From Archaeoglobus profundus DSM 5631 (GTDB taxonomy: Archaea; Halobacteriota; Archaeoglobi; Archaeoglobales; Archaeoglobaceae), in the NCBI RefSeq assembly GCF_000025285.1, contig NC_013741.1, positions 1,178,001 through 1,242,000 on the forward strand: a stretch of DNA of 64,000 nucleotides, read 5' to 3'. The notes under the pieces are model-generated. The model saw only the letters and a program-made list of their open reading frames with translations. It ran no database searches and was not told the DNA's origin. Numbering within the stretch: the first letter of the stretch is position 1; each line of letters begins with the position of its first letter. This document shows positions 16,284-28,621 of the stretch, piece after piece. Made by a program: the position numbers and the translations under genes.

Positions 16284-18701
16284 TTACTTGTCCTCTATTC
16301 CTTTCTCAGTTATCTTGAAAACGACTTCCGCCTCTGGCAAATGCGGTGAGTCTATTAATCTTGCGACTCTCAGATCACCTTTACCCTTTCTGAGGTATAC
16401 TCTGTAAGTTGCCGTATGAGCCACTATATGACCACCTATGGGCCTTGTTGGATCTCCATAGAACGTATCTGGTTTAGCCATAACCTGATTTGTCACGACT
16501 ACAGCGGCATTGAATATCTCTCCGAATCTCATAAGGTCGTGAAGATGCCTATTCAACTTCTGCTGTCTGTCAGCCAAAGCTCCCCTTCCAACGTATTCCG
16601 CTCTGAAATGGGAAGTTAGAGAATCAACTATGAGCAGTCTTACAGGTGGTTTTCCTTCCTTTGCAAGTTTCTTAGCTAACTCTTTAGCGTTGTCAACCAA
16701 GAGCATCTGGTGATTGGAGTTGTAAGCGTGAGCAACGTATATGTTCTTCAAAACCTCCTTTCCATCCAACCCCTTAGCTTCAGCCATCTGAATTATTCTT
16801 TCTGGCCTGAAAGTCTTTTCGGTGTCTATCACTATTACCGAACCTTCTAAGCCACCTTTGTCTCTTGGCAACTGCACGTTTACAGCCAACTGATGACATA
16901 TTTGCGTGTTGTGTAGTATTAAGCCGTTAGGCGCTATGAAGTTGTGTGTTTCTGGGACTACGAGATCGTAAACGTAATCGTTGTAATCCACGATCTCAAC
17001 ATCTTCAACGGTGTAGAAACTCAAAGACTTGCACGTTTCGATTAACCTTAAAGCTTTCCTTGCAATCTCCTTCCTTTTTTCGATTTCCGTCAACAGAGCT
17101 TTTTTAACGTCTTCGTTCTTGGGGAGCCCTCTGAATCTGTAATTCTTAATTTGAGTGTCCTTGAATCCGTAGTTTCTCAACACCGTCCATGAAAAAGGTA
17201 GCTTTACCTTTCTTCCAGCTTTTACATTCCTTTCAGCCTCTTCAAGCATCTTTAGGGAAGTTAAGAACAACTCCTCTATTTCACTTAAAGTTCTTTCCGT
17301 AAACCAAACGTTCAAATCTCTCGTCAGAAGGTGGTATGCTTGCTTGTTATCTAAATTCATCTCGGTCTTAGGCAATTCAACGCAATTCCTATACAACTCT
17401 CTTAAGACCTTTGCAATCTCTGGCGGATACCTTCCAACGCCATCAGCCTTAAGCGATTTTTCTCTCTTCAGTTTTGCAAACCTTAGAACTTCCTTCATCT
17501 TAGCTCTGTCCTCACCCGTTATGTAAATTCTAAGTTTACCGTTCTCCGAAACCTTTGCCGAGATTCCGATAAACTTAAGGAGTGCTATAAGATCGTCCGC
17601 CAACTCCTTACTTACCGTTGATAACTCAACGACGTTACCTACGTATCCATCTCCGTCGATGTAACCAGCTAAGAACGACTTTATGCAATCCTCGTCTGAG
17701 TTGAAGATTATCTCTGGAATTCTCTTGTTCTTAGCCTTGCACTCCTTCAGATTCAACCTTTCCGCTGTAACTTTTCTAAGTAAAATCGTATAAACCGTTC
17801 TTTCTCTCCTTCTGTCTTCCCTAACCTTAGGAGTGTAGTTATCCTTTTTCTTGATGTAATCCACAACGAAATCAACCAAATCCTTTGAGGTTGTAGAAAT
17901 CGAAAGGGGGTTAAATGAACCTTCAGCGGTAAAGATTCCCATGAAGTAGGCATCATCTTCGTCTATGTCACTACCGTTGTTGGTGGGTATTCTCCTAACT
18001 CCGACTACTATATCTCCTACCCTCAACTCACATGCTTTAATCCACTTTAAACCGTCTCTGAAAACCAGAACGGGGTGGTTTGGTGTTACCTTTACACTCA
18101 AACCTTTCGAAAGCTTGATCTTTACGAGTTTTGGTGCGAATTCCTTGTATATGAACTCCGCTCTGACCTTTCTCAATTCACCGTCGAATGTCCAAACGAA
18201 GACGTTTTTGAGCGGAACTGCAAAACCTTCGTCTAATCTGAACTCACCGTTAATCTTGGAATATTTTGAATACATCTCTTCTATACTTTCTATATGATAT
18301 ATTTCGTCGTTTACGTAGAGAACCTTCGTATCCCTTGCAAAACACTTTCCACTCCCGAACTCTCCAAAGAACTCAGTTATAGCCTGAGTTTCAACTCCTC
18401 CGCCCAGTAGATTGTCTAAAGCATTACTTCCAGTCGTAATCTTACCTATTTCTTGTCTTCTCTGGAATATGACTTCACCACTCTCAAAGCCTCCTAGGTT
18501 GGCCATCTTTCTCGCAGCGGTTATGATCTTGAGAGCTGTAGCCTCACCAATATCTGCAACAGCACTCAATTCAGCAGGTGAGCTTACTGCAATGAGCTCT
18601 ATACTGTCATATCCAGCTTCCCTAAGCTTCTCAGCTATGGCAGATCCTACTCCGGGCAAGTCCTCCAAATCTATTACCTTACCATTCTCACTCTTCGCCA
18701 T
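16284..18701 (-). CDS. radA: DNA recombinase RadA precursor with intein
   Basis: 805 codons. After removal of the intein (residues 120-598) the exteins join to a 326-residue RadA, the normal length. The N-terminus has the helix-hairpin-helix domain ([19 protein letters not shown]), the core has Walker A GEFGSGK/TQ split by the intein, Walker [16 protein letters not shown], and the L2 region [12 protein letters not shown]. RadA forms filaments on single-stranded DNA and catalyses strand exchange. Start ATG 18701 has GGTGG upstream. The protein cannot bind ATP until the intein is spliced out. Confidence 0.95.
16908..18344 (-). mobile_element. Intein with LAGLIDADG homing endonuclease in radA
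   Basis: 479 residues inserted directly after Lys of the RadA Walker A motif. First residue Cys ([11 protein letters not shown], block A), block [12 protein letters not shown] with TxxH, two LAGLIDADG motifs [13 protein letters not shown] (residues about 251-263) and [13 protein letters not shown] (342-354), block [14 protein letters not shown] and C-terminal His-Asn before Thr of the C-extein. All residues required for splicing and both endonuclease acidic residues (Glu260 and Asp349/351) are present, so the element looks able to splice and home. Insertion in the P-loop is the commonest radA/recA intein site. Confidence 0.93.
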
Positions 18702-18812: not shown

Positions 18813-18996
18813 TATACATATGATCATCTTTTTGTAATTCGCAAAGCAAGGATGTCATTAAGGATATTTCAAACTTTTGATTGTCTCTTGCAACATAATA
18901 TATACAAATGTTTAAATACTTTTGAACACATTGTCTTCCTTGAGTCGTACTTCAAGCAAAAGGTTTAAAATAAATGTCATAGATTGGTTCAGTTGC

Positions 18997-20235
18997 ATGG
19001 AGTCGGTTAAACTTGTCGAGCTACTCTTGACAGCGGAGATATACAACAGGTTTGAAGAGCTTACTGAGGACGATATACCCAAAGAGTTAAGAAAGGCTTT
19101 CTACGGAAAAAATGGCCTAACGAGACCACTTGTAGTTAAGTACGATACTGCCAAGAAAGTTGTTAAAGACGTGGATTCTGCTTTGAAGAACTTACCATTC
19201 GTTGACTACAACGCAATAACCAGGCAGATAAAGTTGACATCCTTTGAGCTTGCCGTCAAGTGGTTTGCTCAAAGAGCCTTAGACAGGATAGAAAGAAATC
19301 CCATACTCGCATACTACTACCAGAACTACGACTCTTTGAACGTTTCGTATGAGAGAGCTAAGAAGATGAACGCTCCCAAGTGTAGCGATAAGGAGTGGCT
19401 GATGTGTGTTCTAGCAGAGCTTGAAAAGAACAAGGAAACGTCGGAAATGCTTAGTTTGGTTAGGGTGTATTCGCCAGAAGACATAAGAGTTGACTTCTCA
19501 GACATTGCTTTAACCGATGATCAAATTGAAGAGATTAGAAAGATTGAGATTGCTCTTGAAGAGAGGGAATTCTTAAGGGAGATAGGTTTGACGGATGTAG
19601 GAAAGCTACTCTTCATAGGGCCTCCCGGGACTGGAAAGACTACCACAGCGAGAGCGTTGAGTAGAAAGCTCGGATTACCTCTCGTGGAAGTTAAGCTCTC
19701 AATGATAACGTCCCAATACCTAGGTGAAACTTCGAAAAACATAGAGAAGGTTTTCGAACTTGCAAAGATACTAAGTCCTTGCATACTCTTCATAGATGAG
19801 TTCGACTACGTTGCAAAGACCAGAACGAGCGATGAACATGCAGCTGTAAAGAGGGCAGTTAATACGCTTCTCAAGTCCATAGATGAGATTAATCTCGTTG
19901 AGGACGGTGTAATACTCATAGCTGCAACCAACCATCCAAGTCTGCTCGATCCGGCAGTGTGGAGGAGATTCGATAAAGTTATTGAATTTCCAGAGCCTTC
20001 AGAAAGTTTAAGGAGGAGGATACTCGAGATAATACTCGCTAAGGTGCCGGGGAGCTACGACATAGATGAGATAGTTAAGATCACTGAAGGATTTACCGGA
20101 GCGGAGCTGAGACTAGTTGTAAGGGAAGCTGTGTTAAAAGCTTTGCTTGAGGAAAGGAAGGAAATAACCCAGAATGATCTAAAGTCAGCTGTTGAAGAAG
20201 TTAAGAGCAGGTTAAAGCTTAGAGAGACTTATTAG
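18997..20235 (+). CDS. AAA-family ATPase
   Basis: About 412 residues from ATG 18997; the TTTAAAATA box at 18963-18971 lies 26-34 bases upstream, which rules out the longer frame from 18922. The C-terminal half is a single AAA module: Walker A GPPGTGKTT (about 208-216), pore-loop region, Walker B LFIDEFD (about 264-270), sensor 1 AATNHPS, arginine finger region WRRFDKVIEFPEPS and the C-terminal lid. The N-terminal 180 residues are helical and match no domain I know. Archaeal proteins of this type resemble proteasome-activating ATPases only in the AAA domain, so substrate and role are unknown. Confidence 0.85.
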   Translation: MESVKLVELLLTAEIYNRFEELTEDDIPKELRKAFYGKNGLTRPLVVKYDTAKKVVKDVDSALKNLPFVDYNAITRQIKLTSFELAVKWFAQRALDRIERNPILAYYYQNYDSLNVSYERAKKMNAPKCSDKEWLMCVLAELEKNKETSEMLSLVRVYSPEDIRVDFSDIALTDDQIEEIRKIEIALEEREFLREIGLTDVGKLLFIGPPGTGKTTTARALSRKLGLPLVEVKLSMITSQYLGETSKNIEKVFELAKILSPCILFIDEFDYVAKTRTSDEHAAVKRAVNTLLKSIDEINLVEDGVILIAATNHPSLLDPAVWRRFDKVIEFPEPSESLRRRILEIILAKVPGSYDIDEIVKITEGFTGAELRLVVREAVLKALLEERKEITQNDLKSAVEEVKSRLKLRETY

Positions 20236-20271: not shown

Positions 20272-20356
20272 GCGGGGGTTGCCGAGTCAGGTCAAAGGCG
20301 CGGGATTCAGGGTCCCGTCCCGTAGGGGTTCGAGGGTTCAAATCCCTCCCCCCGCA
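20272..20356 (+). tRNA. tRNA-Leu, anticodon CAG
   Basis: 85 bases, no intron. Acceptor GCGGGGG pairs with CCCCCGC, discriminator A, D arm GCCG...GGC, anticodon stem CGGGA/TCCCG with loop TTCAGGG (anticodon CAG), a long class II variable arm and T arm AGGGTTCAAATCCCT. CCA is not encoded. The long variable arm and discriminator A fit leucine. A promoter-like AAATTTTTATCAC lies upstream. The 3' end touches a protein-gene remnant on the other strand, the kind of place where integrating elements insert. Confidence 0.95.
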
Positions 20357-20674: not shown

Positions 20675-21392
20675 ATGACGAAGAAATTTGTGTACCTAAG
20701 TTTTAATATGTGTAGCTGGAGTTCTAGTTCTGGGGTGTATTAGCGAAGAGGTGAAAGCTACCATAAAAGGATATGAAATTACAGATTTCGATGGACGGCC
20801 AGCGATAAAAGTCAATATTGAGACTAATGAATATCCAATAACAGTATACCTATTGGGCCCCGATCGAAGAACAATAGATATGAAGGTGATTGAAAGCGAA
20901 AAGGATATTCCAGCGATTTTGTACTTTGGATTGCCAGGGGCTAATACCAAGCCTGGAACATATTACCTAAAACTTGAGTATGGTGCAAAAACTCTCGAAG
21001 AAAAAGAAATTGAATTAGTAGGATCAAAGGTTCAGCTCGTCGATTATAAATTTAGTTTTGAATACAATGAACTTATTGGATACAAGTTTAAGCGAGTGGA
21101 ATTAACACTTAAAAATATTGGAGATACTCCCGCGTATGTGTACTACATCGAACTAAAAGTAGATGATAAAACACCACTTTCAATGGTTGCAGAGCAATAT
21201 AAAACTCCAATGAATCCTGGCGAAACAAAAACATACTCCGCCGACTTCTCTCTACTGTTTGTTGATAAACCAGGCACATACAAAGTTGAGATAAGAGTTG
21301 CAGATTCCTATGGTACAGTAATTGGAGAATTCGTAAAAACTATCGAAGTTAAATGGGACCAATATTCTGGGGTATCATTTTATTTTTTATAG
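20675..21392 (+). pseudogene. Lipoprotein with CARDB-like beta-sandwich domains, frameshifted in the signal peptide
   Basis: A ribosome binding site AAGGGGGT and ATG at 20675 start MTKKFVYL, but the continuing hydrophobic signal VLICVAGVLVLGC is one base out of frame. Skipping one A at about 20698-20699 joins them into a normal signal peptide with lipobox LVLGC (Cys near residue 21). The rest (20751-21392) is open: about 210 residues with two beta-rich units and phrases such as VELTLKNIGDTPAYVYYIELKV typical of CARDB/NEW3 surface domains. Either the gene is dead, the base is a sequencing error, or translation shifts frame. Codon use is more AT-rich than the surrounding core genes. Confidence 0.6.
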
Positions 21393-21568
21393 GATTGGTC
21401 GGTTGGGTTACATTCAGCGTTGTCGGAGCACTTGAAAAGTTTACAACAGCAAAACTTAGTTCAATAACTTTAATTTATTTTTTTGGATTAACATTCTTTT
21501 TCAGCTTACCAATTGCAATCTTGCTCGAAATCGTTAAATGGATTAAAACGAAGAGAAAGACCAAATGA
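21353..21568 (+). CDS. Small two-helix membrane protein overlapping the lipoprotein gene
   Basis: 71 residues with two strong membrane helices (WGIILFFIGLVGWVTFSVV and ITLIYFFGLTFFFSLPIAIL) and a basic tail KWIKTKRKTK. Its first 40 bases overlap the end of the lipoprotein frame. No clear ribosome binding site precedes ATG 21353, so expression would need coupling. It could also be the original C-terminal anchor of the lipoprotein, split off by a second frameshift. Unknown family. Confidence 0.45.
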   Translation: MGPIFWGIILFFIGLVGWVTFSVVGALEKFTTAKLSSITLIYFFGLTFFFSLPIAILLEIVKWIKTKRKTK

Positions 21569-21985
21569 CAAAGAGTATTATTACACCAATTGAAACAAAT
21601 ACTGACTTAGTTGATACTGTTCGTAAAGCCACATTCATTTGAAAAGACAAAATGTTTTAAAGACTACAGAGGAGAATTACCGAATTACCCAAGATTACTC
21701 AAATTATTTTAACATATAATTTATTTTAACAATTTACAGGCAAAGGAAGAACACATACGTAGGAATAAAAAATGTTAGAACCCCGACTTTTGCCGACTAC
21801 GAATCAGCAGTTAGATACTGTCCGAGAAGAGTTCAAGTCAGGGGCATGAACATCTTTCTATAGAAAAGAGAGAAGATGACAAGAACGATTGGAAAAGTTG
21901 TTGTTGAAGAGAAAAGATTCCAAAAACTATTTTAAGCAATTGTATTGGCGAAGATTCCAAATTACTGATGAGAAAGTGATCAAAA
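21569..21985. other. Gene-free accessory stretch
   Basis: No credible gene. The longest coherent piece on the plus strand, about 21730-21861, reads NTYVGIKNVRTPTFADYES and on to a TAG, with no start codon; it looks like the tail of a decayed protein, family unknown. The segment separates the frameshifted lipoprotein from the hydantoin-type cluster. The last bases before 21986 (GAGAAAGTGATC) serve as ribosome binding site for the enolase-superfamily gene. Confidence 0.5.
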
Positions 21986-23065
21986 ATGAGGATAAAATCC
22001 GTAGAGGTTATCCCGCTCAATATACCCCTTGTGGAGCCTTTCGAAATAGCAATAGGAAAGTTCAGCTTCGCCGAGAACGTTTTAATCAAAGTCCAGCTGG
22101 AGGACGGGACCGTAGGTTATGGTGAAGTCTCATCTTCCGGGATAATCACTGGAGATATTCAATCTACCGCCATAGATATTGTGAAGTACATATCTCCAGC
22201 TCTCGTGGGGGAGTCCATAGAGAGATACAGATACCTGATTAAAAAATTAAGAAGCATAATTAAGTTTCATCCGGGTACTTTTGCAGGTTTGGAAAATGCA
22301 ATTCTCGACGCCTACACCAACTACATAGGCGTTCCGCTTTACAAGTTCTTGGGTGGTGCGAGCTATGAGATCGAGTCCGATGTTACGCTATCTATAACAA
22401 CACCCGAAAAAGCTACTGAGACTGCTTTGAGTTATTTCGAGAAAGGATACCACATATTCAAGCTCAAAGTCGGGAAGGATTTCGATGAGGATTTGAAGAG
22501 GGTTTTGGCTGTAAGCGAAGCAGTTCCGGATTGCGAGATCAGGGTGGATGCTAATCAGGGATACACTCCGAAAGAGGCTGTAAGGTTCATAAACAAGCTT
22601 TACAGCAAAGATGTTAACATCACGCTGTTCGAACAACCAGTTTACTGGAAGGACATTCAAGGTTTGAAGTTCGTTACGGATCACTCGCCCGTCCCGGTGG
22701 CGGCGGATGAAACCGTCTTTACGGCAACAGATGCGTTTAACGTTGCCAGAGAAAGGGTTGTTGACGTTATAAACATCAAGCTCGCAAAGTGCGGTGGCGT
22801 GCTGGAGGCGCTTGACATCATAGCTGTAGCGAAAGCTTCTGGGTTGGAACTCATGATAGGTTGCATGGTGGAATCGAACATCGGTTTAGCTCCGAGCGTT
22901 CACCTAGCATGCGGAACTGGCGAATTTTCGTATATTGATTTGGACTCTTACCTCTTCCTGAAGGAATTGCCACTTAAAGGCGGTTTTGAAGTAGATGGCC
23001 CGAGATTGATCGTGAAGAACATCAAAAAGGGATTGGGCATTGAGGAGAGCAAAAAAGAAAAATAA
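21986..23065 (+). CDS. Enolase-superfamily racemase/epimerase (muconate-lactonizing subgroup)
   Basis: 359 residues. N-terminal capping domain then a TIM barrel carrying the catalytic set of the muconate lactonizing/dipeptide epimerase subgroup: KLKVGKD (Lys acid/base), RVDANQG (metal Asp), LFEQPV (metal Glu), PVAADE (metal Asp) and NIKLAKCGG (second Lys). Two opposed lysines imply a 1,1-proton transfer, so racemisation or epimerisation of an N-acyl amino acid or dipeptide is likely. It is convergent with a hydantoin-type racemase gene two bases away, which suggests an N-carbamoyl or related amino-acid substrate; that last step is inference. Confidence 0.85.
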   Translation: MRIKSVEVIPLNIPLVEPFEIAIGKFSFAENVLIKVQLEDGTVGYGEVSSSGIITGDIQSTAIDIVKYISPALVGESIERYRYLIKKLRSIIKFHPGTFAGLENAILDAYTNYIGVPLYKFLGGASYEIESDVTLSITTPEKATETALSYFEKGYHIFKLKVGKDFDEDLKRVLAVSEAVPDCEIRVDANQGYTPKEAVRFINKLYSKDVNITLFEQPVYWKDIQGLKFVTDHSPVPVAADETVFTATDAFNVARERVVDVINIKLAKCGGVLEALDIIAVAKASGLELMIGCMVESNIGLAPSVHLACGTGEFSYIDLDSYLFLKELPLKGGFEVDGPRLIVKNIKKGLGIEESKKEK

Positions 23066-23067
23066 AA

Positions 23068-23823
23068 TCAGAGCAGTCTGTACTTCTCTCTCGGAGGTCT
23101 GTATGCTTCTTTGCTATGGCTTATTCCCATCAATACGAGCATTATTGCCGTATGAATTGCGGCTCTAAGCGGTTCTATGACTGGAACATTTATTCCCTTC
23201 TCTTTCAACGCTTTCTCCATTGCATCAGCAATCGGAGACATCCCCGTGCATCCGAGCACTATTGCATAGGCTCTGTCTTCAACGACGGCTTTCTCAGCTG
23301 CCTCTATCATTCTTCGAATCGTTAGCTCGGGATTCTTTTCGAGCTCAAGCACAGGCACGTTTATCGTCCTTATCGAAGCCAGATTTTGGATGAGGCCATA
23401 TTTAGTTACGAGCCCTCTTATCAGCGTCTCTGTTTCTGGTAAAATATTAATTATTGAGAATCTACCAGCTATCTGCGATGCCAGATGAATCGAAGCTTGA
23501 TTTGCACCAACGACGGGGATTTTTACAAGTTCTCTCCCTGCATCAAGCCCCGGGTCTCCAAAGCAGTCAAGAACAACGGCATCGTAGCCGTTATCTTCAG
23601 CCCATTTAATCTTCTCCAGAATATAGGGTGTGTTTAGTGCTTCATCGTATGCTCCTTCTATGGATGCCGTTCCCTTTTCTATAGTCACGACTTCCAGCTC
23701 AACAAGCCCGTTTGTTTCCTCCTTTAGCTTTCTCCCCAAATTTTTGCGATCATCTATTGCGCTTTGAATCCCTTCTGTGTAAATTATGGGAACGAGATCA
23801 ACTATTTTTATGGTCTTTACCAT
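23068..23823 (-). CDS. Asp/Glu/hydantoin racemase family protein
   Basis: 251 residues. Two-domain cofactor-independent racemase fold with the paired catalytic cysteines in VVLDCFGDPGLDAGRE (about residue 83) and AIVLGCTGM (about residue 190). The start VKTIKIVDLVPIIYTEG lacks a signal peptide, so it is cytoplasmic. The close neighbours (NCS1 permease, HyuA, DUF917) favour hydantoin or allantoin racemase over aspartate racemase. It is the distal gene of the four-gene minus-strand unit, 12 bases after the permease. Confidence 0.82.
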   Translation of the reverse strand: MVKTIKIVDLVPIIYTEGIQSAIDDRKNLGRKLKEETNGLVELEVVTIEKGTASIEGAYDEALNTPYILEKIKWAEDNGYDAVVLDCFGDPGLDAGRELVKIPVVGANQASIHLASQIAGRFSIINILPETETLIRGLVTKYGLIQNLASIRTINVPVLELEKNPELTIRRMIEAAEKAVVEDRAYAIVLGCTGMSPIADAMEKALKEKGINVPVIEPLRAAIHTAIMLVLMGISHSKEAYRPPREKYRLL

Positions 23824-23835
23824 TTTTTCACCTCC

Positions 23836-25101
23836 TTACTCTCTTTTAATTAATTTCCACAACACCAAATACACAACCATCGCCGTTACTATGCCATTTA
23901 TCGGTGCAATTCCCATCTTCAGCAATAGACCTACTGCAGATCCGGCTATCCATGCAACCACACCTATCCAGTTAACACCCGGATATTCCTCCCATTTCTC
24001 CGGCTTTCCGCTTCTAAGTATCCAGTAATCCGCTATTAAAACTCCAGCGAGTGGTGGTATAGTTGAGGTTAGCAGACTCAACCAGTCGATGAAGTGGTCG
24101 AGTATTCCGCCAACGGCGAGCACCGTACCTATAACACCGGCAATGACTGTTGCAAGTGCTCTTTTCTCTCCTGGGAGATTGAACATGTTTGCCAATGCTA
24201 AACCACCAGAATATGCATTTATTGTGTTGGTCGTCCATGTGGCAAGGATTAGAATCACAAGTGCTATTCCTGAGAGACCGAGTGTTGATAGCACTTCCGT
24301 GATGTCGTATGTTCCGGCAACGACGGACATTATGGCTCCCATGGCGAGCATACCAACTCCAGCGGGCCATACACCTACTACTGACGACAAAACCGCATCT
24401 CTTCTATTTTTAGCGTATCTTGAATAGTCGGCAGCTATTGTAGCACCGACTGCAAATGATCCGACTGTAAGAGCAACTCCTTGGATAAATGGGAATGGAG
24501 AAGGGGGTGAATGCGACACCAGAGTCTCAAGCCCAAACTTCTGTATTGAGACGTAGGTTCCGTAGAGTGAGAGAATTAAAAGTGCCGGGACTGCAATATA
24601 GTTCAGGTATTCCAGAGCTTTGTATCCTATTACAGCGGTCGTGAGCATTATTAATCCCCAAACAAGTGATGATATCCACACTGGAATATCTGCACCAACC
24701 CATGTTTTCATTATGCTCGAGAAAGCTAATCCAGCAACGTTTGCTTGAACTCCAAACCAGCCTATAGTTCCGACAGCGAGGATAAGTGATATTATTACTC
24801 TCGAACCTGCAACACCAAAGGCCGATCTTGATATCACTGCTGCAGGTCTTCCGAGGTCTGCACCCTGCATTCCCGTGAAGGTCATGATTAAGATGATTAT
24901 CGTATAGCCGGCCACTCCAGCCAGTATCCCCTCTTTCAACGGCAAACCACTAACAAGTGCGCCACCAATCATCAGTGCTGGTATGCAGATCATAACTCCA
25001 ATCCAAATCATTGCTATGCTATACCATGGCTGCCTCTCCTCTAGAGGTATTGCGTCAATAGCGTGTTTTTCGATTATCCCATCTTCTTTCACGAAAATCA
25101 C
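23836..25101 (-). CDS. NCS1/CodB-type permease for a pyrimidine- or hydantoin-like substrate
   Basis: 421 residues, about twelve membrane helices. Family features include AVISRSAFGVAGSRV in the first third, GWFGVQANVAGLAF, DYSRYAKNRRDA in the middle and DYWILRSGKPEKWEEYPGVNW near the end, all typical of the cytosine/purine/allantoin/hydantoin (NCS1) transporters. The N-terminal cytoplasmic tail has EERQPWYSIAMIWIG. Located between the racemase and the hydantoinase, it most likely imports the ring compound that HyuA opens. Confidence 0.87.
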   Translation of the reverse strand: MIFVKEDGIIEKHAIDAIPLEERQPWYSIAMIWIGVMICIPALMIGGALVSGLPLKEGILAGVAGYTIIILIMTFTGMQGADLGRPAAVISRSAFGVAGSRVIISLILAVGTIGWFGVQANVAGLAFSSIMKTWVGADIPVWISSLVWGLIMLTTAVIGYKALEYLNYIAVPALLILSLYGTYVSIQKFGLETLVSHSPPSPFPFIQGVALTVGSFAVGATIAADYSRYAKNRRDAVLSSVVGVWPAGVGMLAMGAIMSVVAGTYDITEVLSTLGLSGIALVILILATWTTNTINAYSGGLALANMFNLPGEKRALATVIAGVIGTVLAVGGILDHFIDWLSLLTSTIPPLAGVLIADYWILRSGKPEKWEEYPGVNWIGVVAWIAGSAVGLLLKMGIAPINGIVTAMVVYLVLWKLIKRE

Positions 25102-25116
25102 CCAATAAAAAAAATT

Positions 25117-26670
25117 TTATTTAGAGAGATATCCGGCCGCTTTTACTCTAATTCTTGTTGCGTTTCCTGGCAAATAAGCTAATGGAATCTCTTCAAAGTT
25201 GACGATTTCGACCGTGTCTGGATTTGCTCCGGCCTTTATGGCTTCCTCGACAGCCATTCTCTTTGCCTCTTCAATAGCCTTCTCTCTTCTTATCTGATCT
25301 AAAGAGAACACTCTGTCCACTTCTCCGCTAACCTGAGCTATTGCAGCTCCGATTGCGTTGGCAACATCGTAGTTTGGAGGTCTTATAACTTTGGATGCTC
25401 CTTTCAACTCGTCTGGGACTAAGATACTTCCTCCTCCGACGAGTATCACTGGCATTGGTTCTGGACTGGTTTTGATCTTCTCTATAGCCTCTTCAACCAT
25501 GCTCTTGATCTTCTCCGTTGCCTTGGCTACGAGGTTTCTATCCAAGTTCTTCACTCTCGATGGGTCTCCTATGCTACATCTTCCAGATGCAACCGCAATA
25601 TCCGTGGCTGTTAGCGTATTTCCTCCGAATACAAGCGCTTCATTGACGATTCTGAATCCAACGCTCTCCGGACCTACTTTTATTTCTCCGTTCTCCTCTC
25701 TGACCAAGCTGCCTCCACCGAGTCCTATAGATATAATGTCTGGCATTCTGAAATTCGTTCTAACCCCTCCAATCTCAACCGCAACCGAAGACTCTCTCGG
25801 GAATCCGTTTACAAGGATACCAATATCAGTTGTCGTTCCTCCAACATCCACAACGATCGCATTCTTCTCGTTGGATAGGAAAGCTGCTCCTCTCAGACTG
25901 TTTGTCGGCCCTGAGGCTATTGTCAGAACTGGATATTTAAGTGCATACTCTGCAGTCATTAAAGTTCCATCGTTCTGGGTCAGATACAGCTGAGCATCAA
26001 TGTTTTTCTCGGCTAAAGCTGCTTTAAATGCACCTACAGCTGTTTTGATAACCTTTGTAACCGCGGCATTCAAAGCCGCAGCATTCTCTCTTTCAAGCAA
26101 ACCCAGACTACCTATTTCATGGGATAGCGTTATTGGAATATTATCTCCCAAAATCTCTCTTAGAATTTCAGCCGCTCTTTTCTCATGCTCCGGATTTACG
26201 AGAGAGAAAACTGACGAAATCGCAATTGCTTCAACGTTTTTCTCCTTCAGCTCCTTACCAATCCTTCTTATCTCCTCTTCATCCAGAGGTGCTATCTCTC
26301 TTCCGTCGAATTCGTGTCCTCCCTGAACGATGTATATGTTGTTTCCAACCTTTTCAACCAAATCTGCAGGCCATGAGGTCAGCGGTTTTATGGCTAAAGT
26401 TGCTGGTTTACCTATTCTGATGACAGCTATTTTTGCGAGGTTCTTTCTCTCAACTATTGCGTTTGTTGCGTGAGTCGTTCCGAGCATCGCATATTTTATC
26501 TCAGCGGGATCAACGCCGCTCTTTTTCAGGACAGCATCTATGGCGTTTACTATTCCAGTAGTTACATCTTCAGTCGTTGGAGTTTTTGCCTTGGCTATTA
26601 CGTTGTTCTTTTCATCCAAGATTACGCCGTCGGTGTTGGTACCTCCGACATCAATACCAATCCTCAACAT
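25117..26670 (-). CDS. Hydantoinase/oxoprolinase family protein, HyuA type
   Basis: 517 residues. ATP-binding ASKHA-type fold with phosphate loops IGIDVGGTNTDGV at the N-terminus and VVDVGGTTTDIGILVNG near residue 275, plus LGTTHATNAIVERKN and the C-terminal GGGS segment. HyuA proteins couple ATP cleavage to opening of hydantoin or oxoproline rings, normally with a HyuB partner. No HyuB is present here; instead the DUF917 gene lies upstream with a one-base overlap, a pairing often seen in bacteria and archaea. Confidence 0.87.
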   Translation of the reverse strand: MLRIGIDVGGTNTDGVILDEKNNVIAKAKTPTTEDVTTGIVNAIDAVLKKSGVDPAEIKYAMLGTTHATNAIVERKNLAKIAVIRIGKPATLAIKPLTSWPADLVEKVGNNIYIVQGGHEFDGREIAPLDEEEIRRIGKELKEKNVEAIAISSVFSLVNPEHEKRAAEILREILGDNIPITLSHEIGSLGLLERENAAALNAAVTKVIKTAVGAFKAALAEKNIDAQLYLTQNDGTLMTAEYALKYPVLTIASGPTNSLRGAAFLSNEKNAIVVDVGGTTTDIGILVNGFPRESSVAVEIGGVRTNFRMPDIISIGLGGGSLVREENGEIKVGPESVGFRIVNEALVFGGNTLTATDIAVASGRCSIGDPSRVKNLDRNLVAKATEKIKSMVEEAIEKIKTSPEPMPVILVGGGSILVPDELKGASKVIRPPNYDVANAIGAAIAQVSGEVDRVFSLDQIRREKAIEEAKRMAVEEAIKAGANPDTVEIVNFEEIPLAYLPGNATRIRVKAAGYLSK

Positions 26671-27755
26671 TATTTACCCTCCATTCTCTTTTCTATCGGG
26701 ACATAATCGATATCGTAACCAAAATAGCGAGGACCAGCCACTTCCAGACCTTTGGGCGTTCTCCACTTCTCACTACAGGGTATCCCTATTACCACACATC
26801 TATATCCGTACTTCAGACCTTCAGTAGTTATCGGCTCTCCAGTCGTTACGTCAAGAACTGTTATTAAGTCCGGAACACTCGCTATGACTTCACCATCACG
26901 AATAGCAACAAGATTTTCATTCTGGAAGTGTATCTCAAGTTTTTGCCCACTGTATTCGTCAATACCCTCAAGAATTGCCTCTCCTCTTGCAAAACCGCCA
27001 GTAGTCCTTCTAACAACATCTACTATCTTTCCTTTGAAGAGCTCAAATCCGTTTGTTACATCCAGAATCGCATCGACTGGATTTACCTTTCTTTCTCTGC
27101 TTTCTCTTATCGCTCTTCCTATTTCTTCAGCCAGAGTTATTGTGTTGAGGATTGCAGCTTCCTTCAGCTGTTTTCCGGTCATTGGATAGATTGCAATCCA
27201 TGCAGTTCCTCCAAACTGCACTGTTATCGTTCTCGCAATCCATTCTGCCCAGTAGTTGTTTGCCGCTTTCAGTAGAACTACATTGTCCCTTTCATCAGCC
27301 AAAGCCATTGGAGTTGCCGAAATTCCATAAATATGGAATGTCGTCATCTGAAGCTCCGGAAAAGCCCTCCCCATGCCATCCGCGTCGACGATTGGAATGC
27401 CCATTCTTGCACCCACTGCAAGTGGAGTTGTTGAGTTCAACCCCCCAGCCTCAATCGGCAGTGTGGCATAGACTTCCTACCCAAAGTAATCGCTCAAAGT
27501 CTTAAAGGCGTTTATAATCTCTGTTCCTTTTGGTATCTTCTCGATAATGACTGTTGGAGCGCCCATTCCGGCTGAGGGGATTACCAGAGCATCGTTTGGC
27601 ACGTCTTTTGGATCAATGACGCATATCTCGTAGCCCTCTTCTAAAGCCTGCAAAGCTGCGAGTTTTCCGATGTATGGATCTCCACCACCGCCAGTTCCCA
27701 GGACTGTGGCACCTAATGCAAGATCCTCAATATCCTGCTTGTCTAAGACCCTAAT
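26670..27755 (-). pseudogene. DUF917 (S-methyl thiohydantoin desulfurase-like) protein with in-frame amber codon and no normal start
   Basis: The full-length family frame runs from 27755 to 26670, about 360 codons, but is interrupted by TAG at 27477-27479: upstream it reads NAFKTLSDYFG, then TAG, then EVYATLPIEAGG. The upstream part has the nucleotide-binding-like LGTGGGGDPYIGKLAA; the downstream part starts again at residue 106 and carries GARMGIPIVDADGMGRAFPELQMTTF. The ribosome binding site GGGGGTGAT is intact, yet the codon at start position is ATT. Two independent lesions suggest decay, though a split protein or readthrough cannot be excluded. Confidence 0.8.
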
Positions 27756-27784
27756 TTAAATCACCCCCTAACGTAGACCGTAAT

Positions 27785-27825
27785 TGAGTCACTCAGTGTC
27801 GAGCCACCAACCTACTTATATACTT
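27785..27825 (-). promoter_or_regulatory. Promoter and dyad operator of the hydantoin-type cluster
   Basis: On the minus strand AAGTATATAAG (27815-27825) is a strong TATA box. About 26 bases downstream, where transcription should start, lies the perfect dyad TGAGT-C-ACTCA (27785-27795). A repressor bound there would block initiation. The leader to the ATT/ribosome binding site would be about 40 bases. Confidence 0.55.
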
Positions 27826-28007: not shown

Positions 28008-28621
28008 TATAACCTAATCAACAAAGGGATTGTAGACAATACTACGAACATGAACAGTAAGAAAACAGCAATCACAACTGTCATAACACATCTCTTCCAC
28101 TCATCAAAACTCATAACGTTCAGCTTCAGTCTCTTCTCCTCGCATCCTTCAACATGTCTTACGTGCACATCGTAGTTACCTCGCCTCAAGTTCGGGAGCT
28201 TAAAAGAAAACTTGCCATCCTTCAAGCTGCATCTGCCAAAAACAACCCCGTTCATCAAGAGGACAACGCTACCCTTTGCAGGAATCCATCTCCTCCCAAT
28301 TCTCTCCCTAACTACACCCACAATTTCCGCACTGTCACCCTCTTTAATGCCGAAAAGGCCTCCAGAGACGTGTGCAGAAATTTTGAAATTTCTATCAAAT
28401 CTTTCCGACTTTCTAAATTTGAGAAAGCTAGCGAGCTTCAAAGCTCTGAGAACAAGAAACCATCCAAAGACGACAAAGCAGACTCCTATGTAAACGACTT
28501 TAAGTGCAAGGCTCTTATCCTTTAGAGAAAGAAATATTCCAGATGCGATGATAAGGTATCCTAGGGACTTTATGCCCACACCTATGAGAATTCTCGCATG
28601 AATTGGTGTAAACTCTCTCAT
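28007..28621 (-). CDS. Membrane protein with carboxypeptidase-regulatory-like beta domain
   Basis: 204 residues. Two N-terminal membrane helices (IGVGIKSLGYLIIASGIFL and VVYIGVCFVVFGWFLVL), a beta-sandwich segment (residues about 85-165) with GKFSFKLPNLRRGNYDVHVRHV that resembles Ig-like regulatory domains, and a C-terminal helix MTVVIAVFLLFMFVVLSTI. Unknown function. It overlaps the mqnC stop by four bases and so is cotranscribed with the menaquinone gene, which does not by itself show a shared role. Confidence 0.65.
   Translation of the reverse strand: MREFTPIHARILIGVGIKSLGYLIIASGIFLSLKDKSLALKVVYIGVCFVVFGWFLVLRALKLASFLKFRKSERFDRNFKISAHVSGGLFGIKEGDSAEIVGVVRERIGRRWIPAKGSVVLLMNGVVFGRCSLKDGKFSFKLPNLRRGNYDVHVRHVEGCEEKRLKLNVMSFDEWKRCVMTVVIAVFLLFMFVVLSTIPLLIRL

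Follow-up and report, generated by a model that had tools for sequence, protein, structure and literature searches.

A HyuA-DUF917 gene pair as a candidate ring-opening enzyme in Archaeoglobaceae and its mosaic, partly broken copy in Archaeoglobus profundus

The stretch of 64,000 nucleotides of Archaeoglobus profundus DSM 5631 analysed here, called the window (assembly GCF_000025285.1, contig NC_013741.1, positions 1,178,001 to 1,242,000 of the forward strand), contains a group of five genes at positions 21,986 to 27,825. From the sequence alone, an original prediction had assigned to this group the import, racemisation and ATP-driven opening of a hydantoin, thiohydantoin or allantoin-like ring. 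The genome (G000) consists of 1,563,423 bp on two contigs; for the published strain AV18T, a chromosome of 1,560,622 bp, a plasmid of 2,801 bp and 35 pseudogenes were reported (PMC3035285). By Pfam matches and reading frames, the five gene families were identified where they had been predicted, DUF917 as a coding region (lengths in amino acids, aa):

21986-23065, plus strand: enolase-superfamily protein, dipeptide-epimerase-like, 359 aa (PF13378/PF02746)
23068-23823, minus strand: Asp/Glu/hydantoin racemase, 251 aa (PF01177, E 5.8e-41)
23836-25101, minus strand: NCS1 permease, 421 aa (PF02133, E 1.6e-42)
25117-26670, minus strand: short HyuA-type ATPase, 517 aa (PF05378 and the first part of PF01968)
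26670-27755, minus strand: DUF917/S-Me-THD-like gene (PF06032 and PF20906 across the whole frame when one stop is read through)

Four of these genes form a run on the minus strand in the order DUF917, HyuA, NCS1 permease and Asp/Glu racemase, with the end of DUF917 overlapping the start of HyuA (both at 26670). The enolase gene lies on the plus strand and converges with this run, the facing ends being 23065 and 23068. Because of the opposite strand and the convergent ends, it is not in the same transcript as the other four genes. Scans of the bacterial type, which say little in an archaeon, identified 7 sigma-70 promoter sites against a mean of 9.2 in shuffled sequences, and 5 terminator sites against 5.3 in shuffles.

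The nucleotide-binding domains of HyuA (PF05378, PF01968) score over their cut-offs, whereas a HyuB partner is lacking: PF02538 has no match beside the cluster or anywhere in G000, and the control search gave matches in 6 of 14 known genomes. A HyuA without HyuB, as had been proposed, is thus found for the locus and for the whole genome. In the racemase, the PF01177 match is accompanied by two cysteines, C87 and C192, which are invariant in six sequences and are presumably the catalytic ones. The fold family and the two conserved cysteines are shared with hydantoin and allantoin racemases (3qvj, 5lfd); unlike these, the window racemase groups with the racemase of G316, a gene adjoining DUF917, NCS1 and M29-like peptidase genes. 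The permease matches the NCS1 transporter family (PF02133), and its best NCBIfam model is the cytosine permease PRK11017, with 248.9 bits against a cut-off of 326.

For DUF917, both NCBIfam matches are thiohydantoin desulfurase equivalogs (E 2.9e-28 and 1.2e-27). S-methyl thiohydantoin desulfurase and thiohydantoin desulfurase (NF058532, NF058529) belong to the same two-domain Pfam family, but the DUF917 scores of 98.8 and 97 bits are far below the equivalog cut-offs of 450 and 440. It also differs from the desulfurases in that DUF917 adjoins HyuA in nearly all HyuA loci (below) and in that the gene is broken here: the N- and C-terminal domains match with a TAG read through, but the frame is not intact. 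A structure model built with the stop read through (predicted local distance difference test, pLDDT, 92.7) fits 2o3i, a hypothetical protein of the same family, over 336 residues with Z 40.6 and a root-mean-square deviation of 2.2. By Foldseek/VIA-align, 2o3i was the one clear match, all other rows having Z of 4.2 or less.

The enolase-type protein has been identified most closely with dipeptide epimerases. Its best NCBIfam model is L-Ala-D/L-Glu epimerase (NF041118, E 1.1e-102), with 343.7 bits below the equivalog cut-off of 500, and in the PDB it matches best the Thermotoga maritima epimerase (2zad/3deq, E 7.2e-74), with the Bacillus subtilis L-Ala-D/L-Glu epimerase 1jpm next; for the copy in the relatives, the closest entry is the dipeptide epimerase 3jva. 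In the window protein and four relatives, K159-x-K161, K265, D188, E216 and D241 are invariant, the three lysines being taken as the acid-base residues and the three acids as metal ligands. Also invariant in these five sequences is D318-L-D320, and the same DLDS stretch is present in 2zad; in dipeptide epimerases, a D-x-D motif binds the amino end of the dipeptide. The residues expected of a dipeptide epimerase are present, and the equivalog score falls short. The T. maritima enzyme, the closest solved relative, with which the catalytic region aligns, was shown to accept L-Ala-D/L-Phe, Tyr and His as well as dipeptides whose C-terminal residue is hydrophobic (PMC3605383, PMC13338154). In contrast to that enzyme, the window protein is encoded beside a ring-opening cassette, and its activity is predicted from sequence. 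By sequence, action on dipeptides is the likelier case for it, which the original prediction had itself named as a possible refutation.

A more complete gene set was identified in related genomes. A search for PF06032 over 392 genomes of the phylum found the family in nine, including the window genome. In four related Archaeoglobaceae (G149, G092, G188 and G253), nine genes lie in a row on the same strand, in the order DUF917, HyuA, NCS1, Asp/Glu racemase, nitroreductase, DUF6092, enolase-type protein, Lrp/AsnC and a second DUF917; the nitroreductase (171-179 aa), DUF6092 and Lrp/AsnC genes were identified by Pfam in two of the four. The two best PDB matches of the G149 nitroreductase are 9exv_A, from an entry which also holds AlbB, and 8uc3_A, albonoursin synthase, and the G149 DUF6092 protein matches AlbB (8uc3_D) with E 4.6e-11. 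AlbAB is a cyclodipeptide oxidase (CDO) whose small subunit was assigned to PF19585 (PMC11055893). The row thus contains neighbours resembling both the CDOA and the CDOB subunit. DUF6092 (PF19585) scores over cut-off in 4 of the 392 genomes, the same four which carry the row; a weak match in G183 is under the cut-off. In G000, neither a PF19585 match nor a second DUF917 was identified elsewhere in the genome.

Not every related genome carries the row. G050, of the same genus as the row-bearing relatives, lacks the row and has no PF06032 or PF19585 match at E 0.001; G282, of the same genus and 80% complete, has broken DUF917 pieces only; and in the sister genome G004, PF06032 gave no match. No described archaeal pathway with both racemase types was found, as had been stated, but the pair itself stands in one same-strand row in the four relatives.

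The pairing of HyuA with DUF917 was followed in the best 80 of at least 400 confirmed candidates from a pattern scan, so that the fractions describe close HyuA relatives only; some of these loci are on short contigs with neighbours cut off, and L039 is the same contig as that of G188. In 78 of the 80 loci, DUF917 is encoded on the same strand as HyuA and no more than 300 bp away from it; HyuB is present in 4. DUF6092 was identified in 3, a nitroreductase match in 4 and an Asp/Glu racemase in 12. An NCS1 permease accompanies 45 loci and an oligopeptide/dipeptide-type ATP-binding cassette (ABC) ATPase within 6 kb another 19; none has both and 16 have neither (Fisher p 3.5e-9 for this exclusivity, uncorrected for shared ancestry, the importer types largely following different branches of the HyuA tree). 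In a scan of 108 of 140 nearest neighbours, 32 having been dropped by hand, oligo_HPY was found in 13 and SBP_bac_5 in 4 proteins.

DUF917 also occurs in two further settings. In G149, a third DUF917 adjoins an Asp/Glu racemase gene and five Opp/Dpp-type ABC importer genes (L038, 5528-12798, minus strand); no HyuA is present beside it within the 13 kb taken. On a 5.7 kb contig of G316, a bin with 9% contamination, the genes for DUF917, a racemase and NCS1 are accompanied by those for an M29-like peptidase (Pfam E 8.9e-13, without an NCBIfam match) and an AsnC-type regulator; this contig has no HyuA.

Since these settings combine peptide-type importers and a peptidase with AlbA/AlbB-like subunits and a dipeptide-epimerase-like protein, the sequence comparisons point to cyclic dipeptides, over hydantoins, as the best-supported substrate class. 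In its whole form, the gene set would import and open 2,5-diketopiperazines, which are cyclic dipeptides, or cyclic amides much like them, a reading to which a probability of about 0.45 is given. Judging from its family, the NCS1 permease would take up the ring, and in the four relatives the AlbA/AlbB-like subunits may oxidise or otherwise prepare it. HyuA would then phosphorylate the lactim oxygen of a ring amide, in analogy to the reaction proposed for CapA and 5-oxoprolinase, after which DUF917, in the place of HyuB, could direct water onto the activated C=N carbon and thereby open the ring. The two remaining enzymes, the Asp/Glu-type racemase and the dipeptide epimerase of the enolase type, might finally convert stereoisomers, so that both forms can be used in peptide and amino-acid breakdown. 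Ring import, stereochemical inversion and ATP-driven opening, the general scheme first proposed, fit the families; a hydantoin, thiohydantoin or allantoin as the favoured substrate is not supported, in view of the epimerase relatives 2zad/3deq and the AlbA/AlbB-like neighbours in the four relatives.

The role suggested for DUF917 rests on its chemistry. (S-methyl) thiohydantoin desulfurases act by substitution of a leaving group at a C=N carbon, and in our reasoning this exchange of sulfur for water on a ring C=N resembles the hydrolysis of an O-phosphorylated lactim, which would make DUF917 a possible stand-in for HyuB. Because HyuB is absent, DUF917 lies beside HyuA and the desulfurase chemistry is close to lactim hydrolysis, we infer by analogy that HyuA and DUF917 may be the two halves of one ATP-dependent ring-opening enzyme. 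The HyuA-type ATPase domains are shared with CapAB caprolactamase, HyuAB hydantoinase and 5-oxoprolinase. For CapAB, a two-subunit logic was proposed, in which the lactim is activated in CapA (by phosphorylation in two of three schemes) and hydrolysed at the metal site of CapB (PMC8453981). Differences to these systems are the genome without HyuB, the length of only 517 aa of the window HyuA with part of PF01968, and DUF917 as its neighbour.

Part of this gene combination is already known. Among CDO-like clusters outside cyclodipeptide synthase (CDPS) loci, PF00881 nitroreductases with PF19585, PF01177 racemases, DUF917 and dipeptide/oligopeptide transporters were reported to be enriched together, in archaea too (PMC11055893). 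In contrast to these clusters, the window genome has no PF19585 match, and the main text of that paper does not contain the terms "epimerase", "enolase" or "Archaeoglob". A suggestion that some oxoprolinase-annotated genes are possible cyclic dipeptide hydrolases has also been made (PMC6061476). In the literature searched, no paper was found which describes the combination of epimerase, DUF917 and HyuA; DUF917 does occur there, and "thiohydantoin desulfurase" was not met. New are the epimerase in the gene row, HyuA-DUF917 without HyuB as one putative enzyme, and the mosaic A. profundus copy with its broken DUF917. The widest form of the proposal is rather doubtful: HyuA-DUF917 would be an undescribed ring opener with DUF917 in the place of HyuB, hyperthermophilic archaea would break down cyclic dipeptides anaerobically by means of a single operon which also encodes a dipeptide epimerase, a cyclic-amide racemase and a CDO-like enzyme, and A. 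profundus would hold a patchwork copy which is being lost. The DUF917-HyuA pair, present in bacteria and archaea and in a peptide-type setting in Archaeoglobaceae, is a directly testable candidate enzyme, and it could explain the role of some CDO-like and DUF917 genes.

The window copy of the set is a mosaic. Identity to the four relatives is 73-74% for HyuA and 73-78% for DUF917 (compared to their first DUF917), but 40-42% for the Asp/Glu racemase, 41-44% for the enolase-type protein and 32-34% for the permease. In a HyuA tree of 85 rows, built by a quick method, the window row is in a starred set of six rows, together with one Syntrophobacterales row and those from Archaeoglobus. The permease tree (46 rows) places the window permease with Bacillota, Spirochaetota and Thermotogota, and a 100/100 branch separates the relatives' permeases. 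The window racemase joins that of G316 (87/94), with the operon copies in another group (100/99); a long-branch warning applies to the L038 row and the window group. The enolase tree of 8 rows is in effect a three-way split between L143-L145, the operon copies and the window row. Orthology of the window enolase with the operon copies, which had been considered, is unsupported because of this split and because L143 scores higher (284.6 bits) than the G149 copy (275.9 bits). L143-L145 are three relatives from the phylum outside the class of the window genome, probably haloarchaea, and no DUF917 or HyuA match was found in the sequence of about 4 kb from each.

The place of the permease in a clade of bacterial rows supports an origin of at least this gene outside the Archaeoglobus lineage to which the others belong. 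The horizontal acquisition originally suggested for the cluster is thus supported for the permease and possible for the other genes. As judged from the sequences compared, what the window carries is a catabolic gene set of Archaeoglobaceae in reduced, mosaic and partly broken form.

The damage is found in DUF917 and had been missed in the original prediction. The features concerned are:

27477-27479, minus strand: in-frame TAG in DUF917, where four relatives have AGA or AAA
27753-27755, minus strand: ATT at the position of the relatives' GTG start, with an in-frame TAA as the codon before
27768-27760, minus strand: ribosome-binding-site-like GGGGGTGAT, just upstream of the DUF917 ATT, identified by eye
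27816-27823, minus strand: TATA-box-like TATATAAG upstream of DUF917, identified by eye

The TAG, read at 27479-27477, is the one internal stop, and no ATG, GTG or TTG is present at the start. A PylC search of the window genome gave no match, and PylS gave two matches of 25 bits or less against a cut-off of 178. With the TAG, the ATT start and no pyrrolysine machinery found, DUF917 in A. profundus is probably a pseudogene. As the genome also lacks an AlbB-like subunit and a further DUF917, A. profundus itself probably has an impaired pathway. The lesions look recent, because the frame is otherwise intact and its nonsynonymous distance (dN) to G149 is 0.146, compared to 0.184 for HyuA; the synonymous distance (dS) was not computable. 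The reading of the cluster as an intact pathway is thereby corrected to one of a decaying mosaic. Beside these lesions, a locus in G282 (L153, C207, 2-892) appears to carry DUF917 broken into several frames, with a TAG in one piece; loss of DUF917, or poor assembly, may be recurrent among the relatives.

That the cluster in A. profundus is a dead remnant, its genes being together for historical reasons only, has a chance not far short of even, and it is compatible with the breakdown of cyclic dipeptides in the relatives. It is favoured by both DUF917 lesions, by the absence of DUF6092 from the genome and by the decayed DNA adjoining the cluster. In addition, the DNA homology between the window and G004, which is without PF06032, stops beside the cluster at 28091 (in the stretch taken from G004). 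On the other hand, the remaining four genes have open frames, HyuA is conserved, and the DUF917 lesions look recent.

Several observations weigh against cyclic dipeptides as the substrate. An enolase match was found in 3 of the 80 HyuA loci and is close only in Archaeoglobus, so that the link to an epimerase rests on one family, and the window enolase shows no greater similarity to the operon copies than to proteins from outside its class. SBP_bac_5-type importers carry many solutes besides peptides. DUF917 is without an adjoining HyuA in L038 and L152 and need not always work with it, and in the structure comparison of DUF917 nothing pointed to HyuB. The best PDB relatives of the window racemase are annotated as putative hydantoin racemase, followed by allantoin racemase. 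PucR, the regulator of purine catabolism, is the commonest regulator, in 14 of the 108 neighbours scanned. In L049 (11671-13664), from a Thermotogota bin, genes of the carbamoyltransferase and amino-acid-kinase families follow NCS1-DUF917-HyuA, an arrangement which would suit a hydantoin-type substrate there. AlbAB homologues occur outside cyclodipeptide synthase clusters, and their discoverers favour hydantoin- or allantoin-like substrates (PMC11055893).

Together with the family names of the Pfam matches, the last four of these points speak for a pathway of the hydantoin or allantoin type, in which NCS1 would import a 5-substituted hydantoin, the racemase would invert it, HyuA and DUF917 would turn it into an N-carbamoyl amino acid by ring opening, and the enolase-type protein would be an N-acyl- or N-carbamoyl-amino-acid racemase. 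Such a pathway is considered unlikely. For the enolase-type protein, 21 PDB sequences were found at E 1e-30 or better, with dipeptide epimerases in the lead and none named N-acylamino-acid racemase; the AlbA/AlbB-like subunits of the relatives and the oligopeptide/dipeptide-type ABC ATPase, which stands in place of NCS1 in the 19 loci mentioned, also fit cyclic dipeptides better than hydantoins.

It is improbable that DUF917 is made whole in A. profundus, by recoding of the TAG (pyrrolysine or readthrough, the latter perhaps with weak translation from the ATT) or because the TAG is a sequencing error. The frame is indeed intact and well conserved on both sides of the TAG. Pyrrolysine is unlikely, with no PylC and no PylS over cut-off, and an error is countered by the published coverage of 136x by 454 and 30x by Illumina (PMC3035285) and by the second oddity, the ATT at the start. 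The breakdown of a thiohydantoin or an ergothioneine-derived sulfur ring, in which DUF917 would remove the sulfur of an (S-methyl) thiohydantoin before HyuA opens the hydantoin, is improbable too: both equivalogs matched by DUF917 are thiohydantoin desulfurases, but at scores far below their cut-offs.

On the side of the enolase gene, a tRNA-Leu gene lies at 20272-20356, 1.6 kb from it. The DNA between this tRNA and the cluster is AT-rich, with G+C of 0.374 and 0.333 in two 1-kb steps. Within it, at 20676-21570 (plus strand), an AT-rich stretch has a lipoprotein-like frame (lipobox-like VLVLGC) which appears, by eye, to be frameshifted from its ATG near the signal peptide and is followed by a short membrane-type frame; this region looks like decayed accessory genes. 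The description of decayed DNA next to tRNA-Leu is therefore upheld for the AT-rich, apparently frameshifted DNA, but the tRNA is at some distance from the cluster and the window gives no sign of an att-type repeat. As an integration site the tRNA-Leu was rejected, since a search of the window with the 25 bases of its 3' end, at up to 3 mismatches, gave no second copy.

Beside the tRNA, at 18922-20235 (plus strand), an AAA ATPase is encoded; among the NCBIfam models, that of the anti-phage ATPase IteA fits it best (E 3.4e-57), but its 194 bits are under the cut-off of 510. At 16284-18701 (minus strand), RadA was identified with an intein of about 480 residues, the N- and C-terminal splicing models matching residues 120-213 and 576-599.

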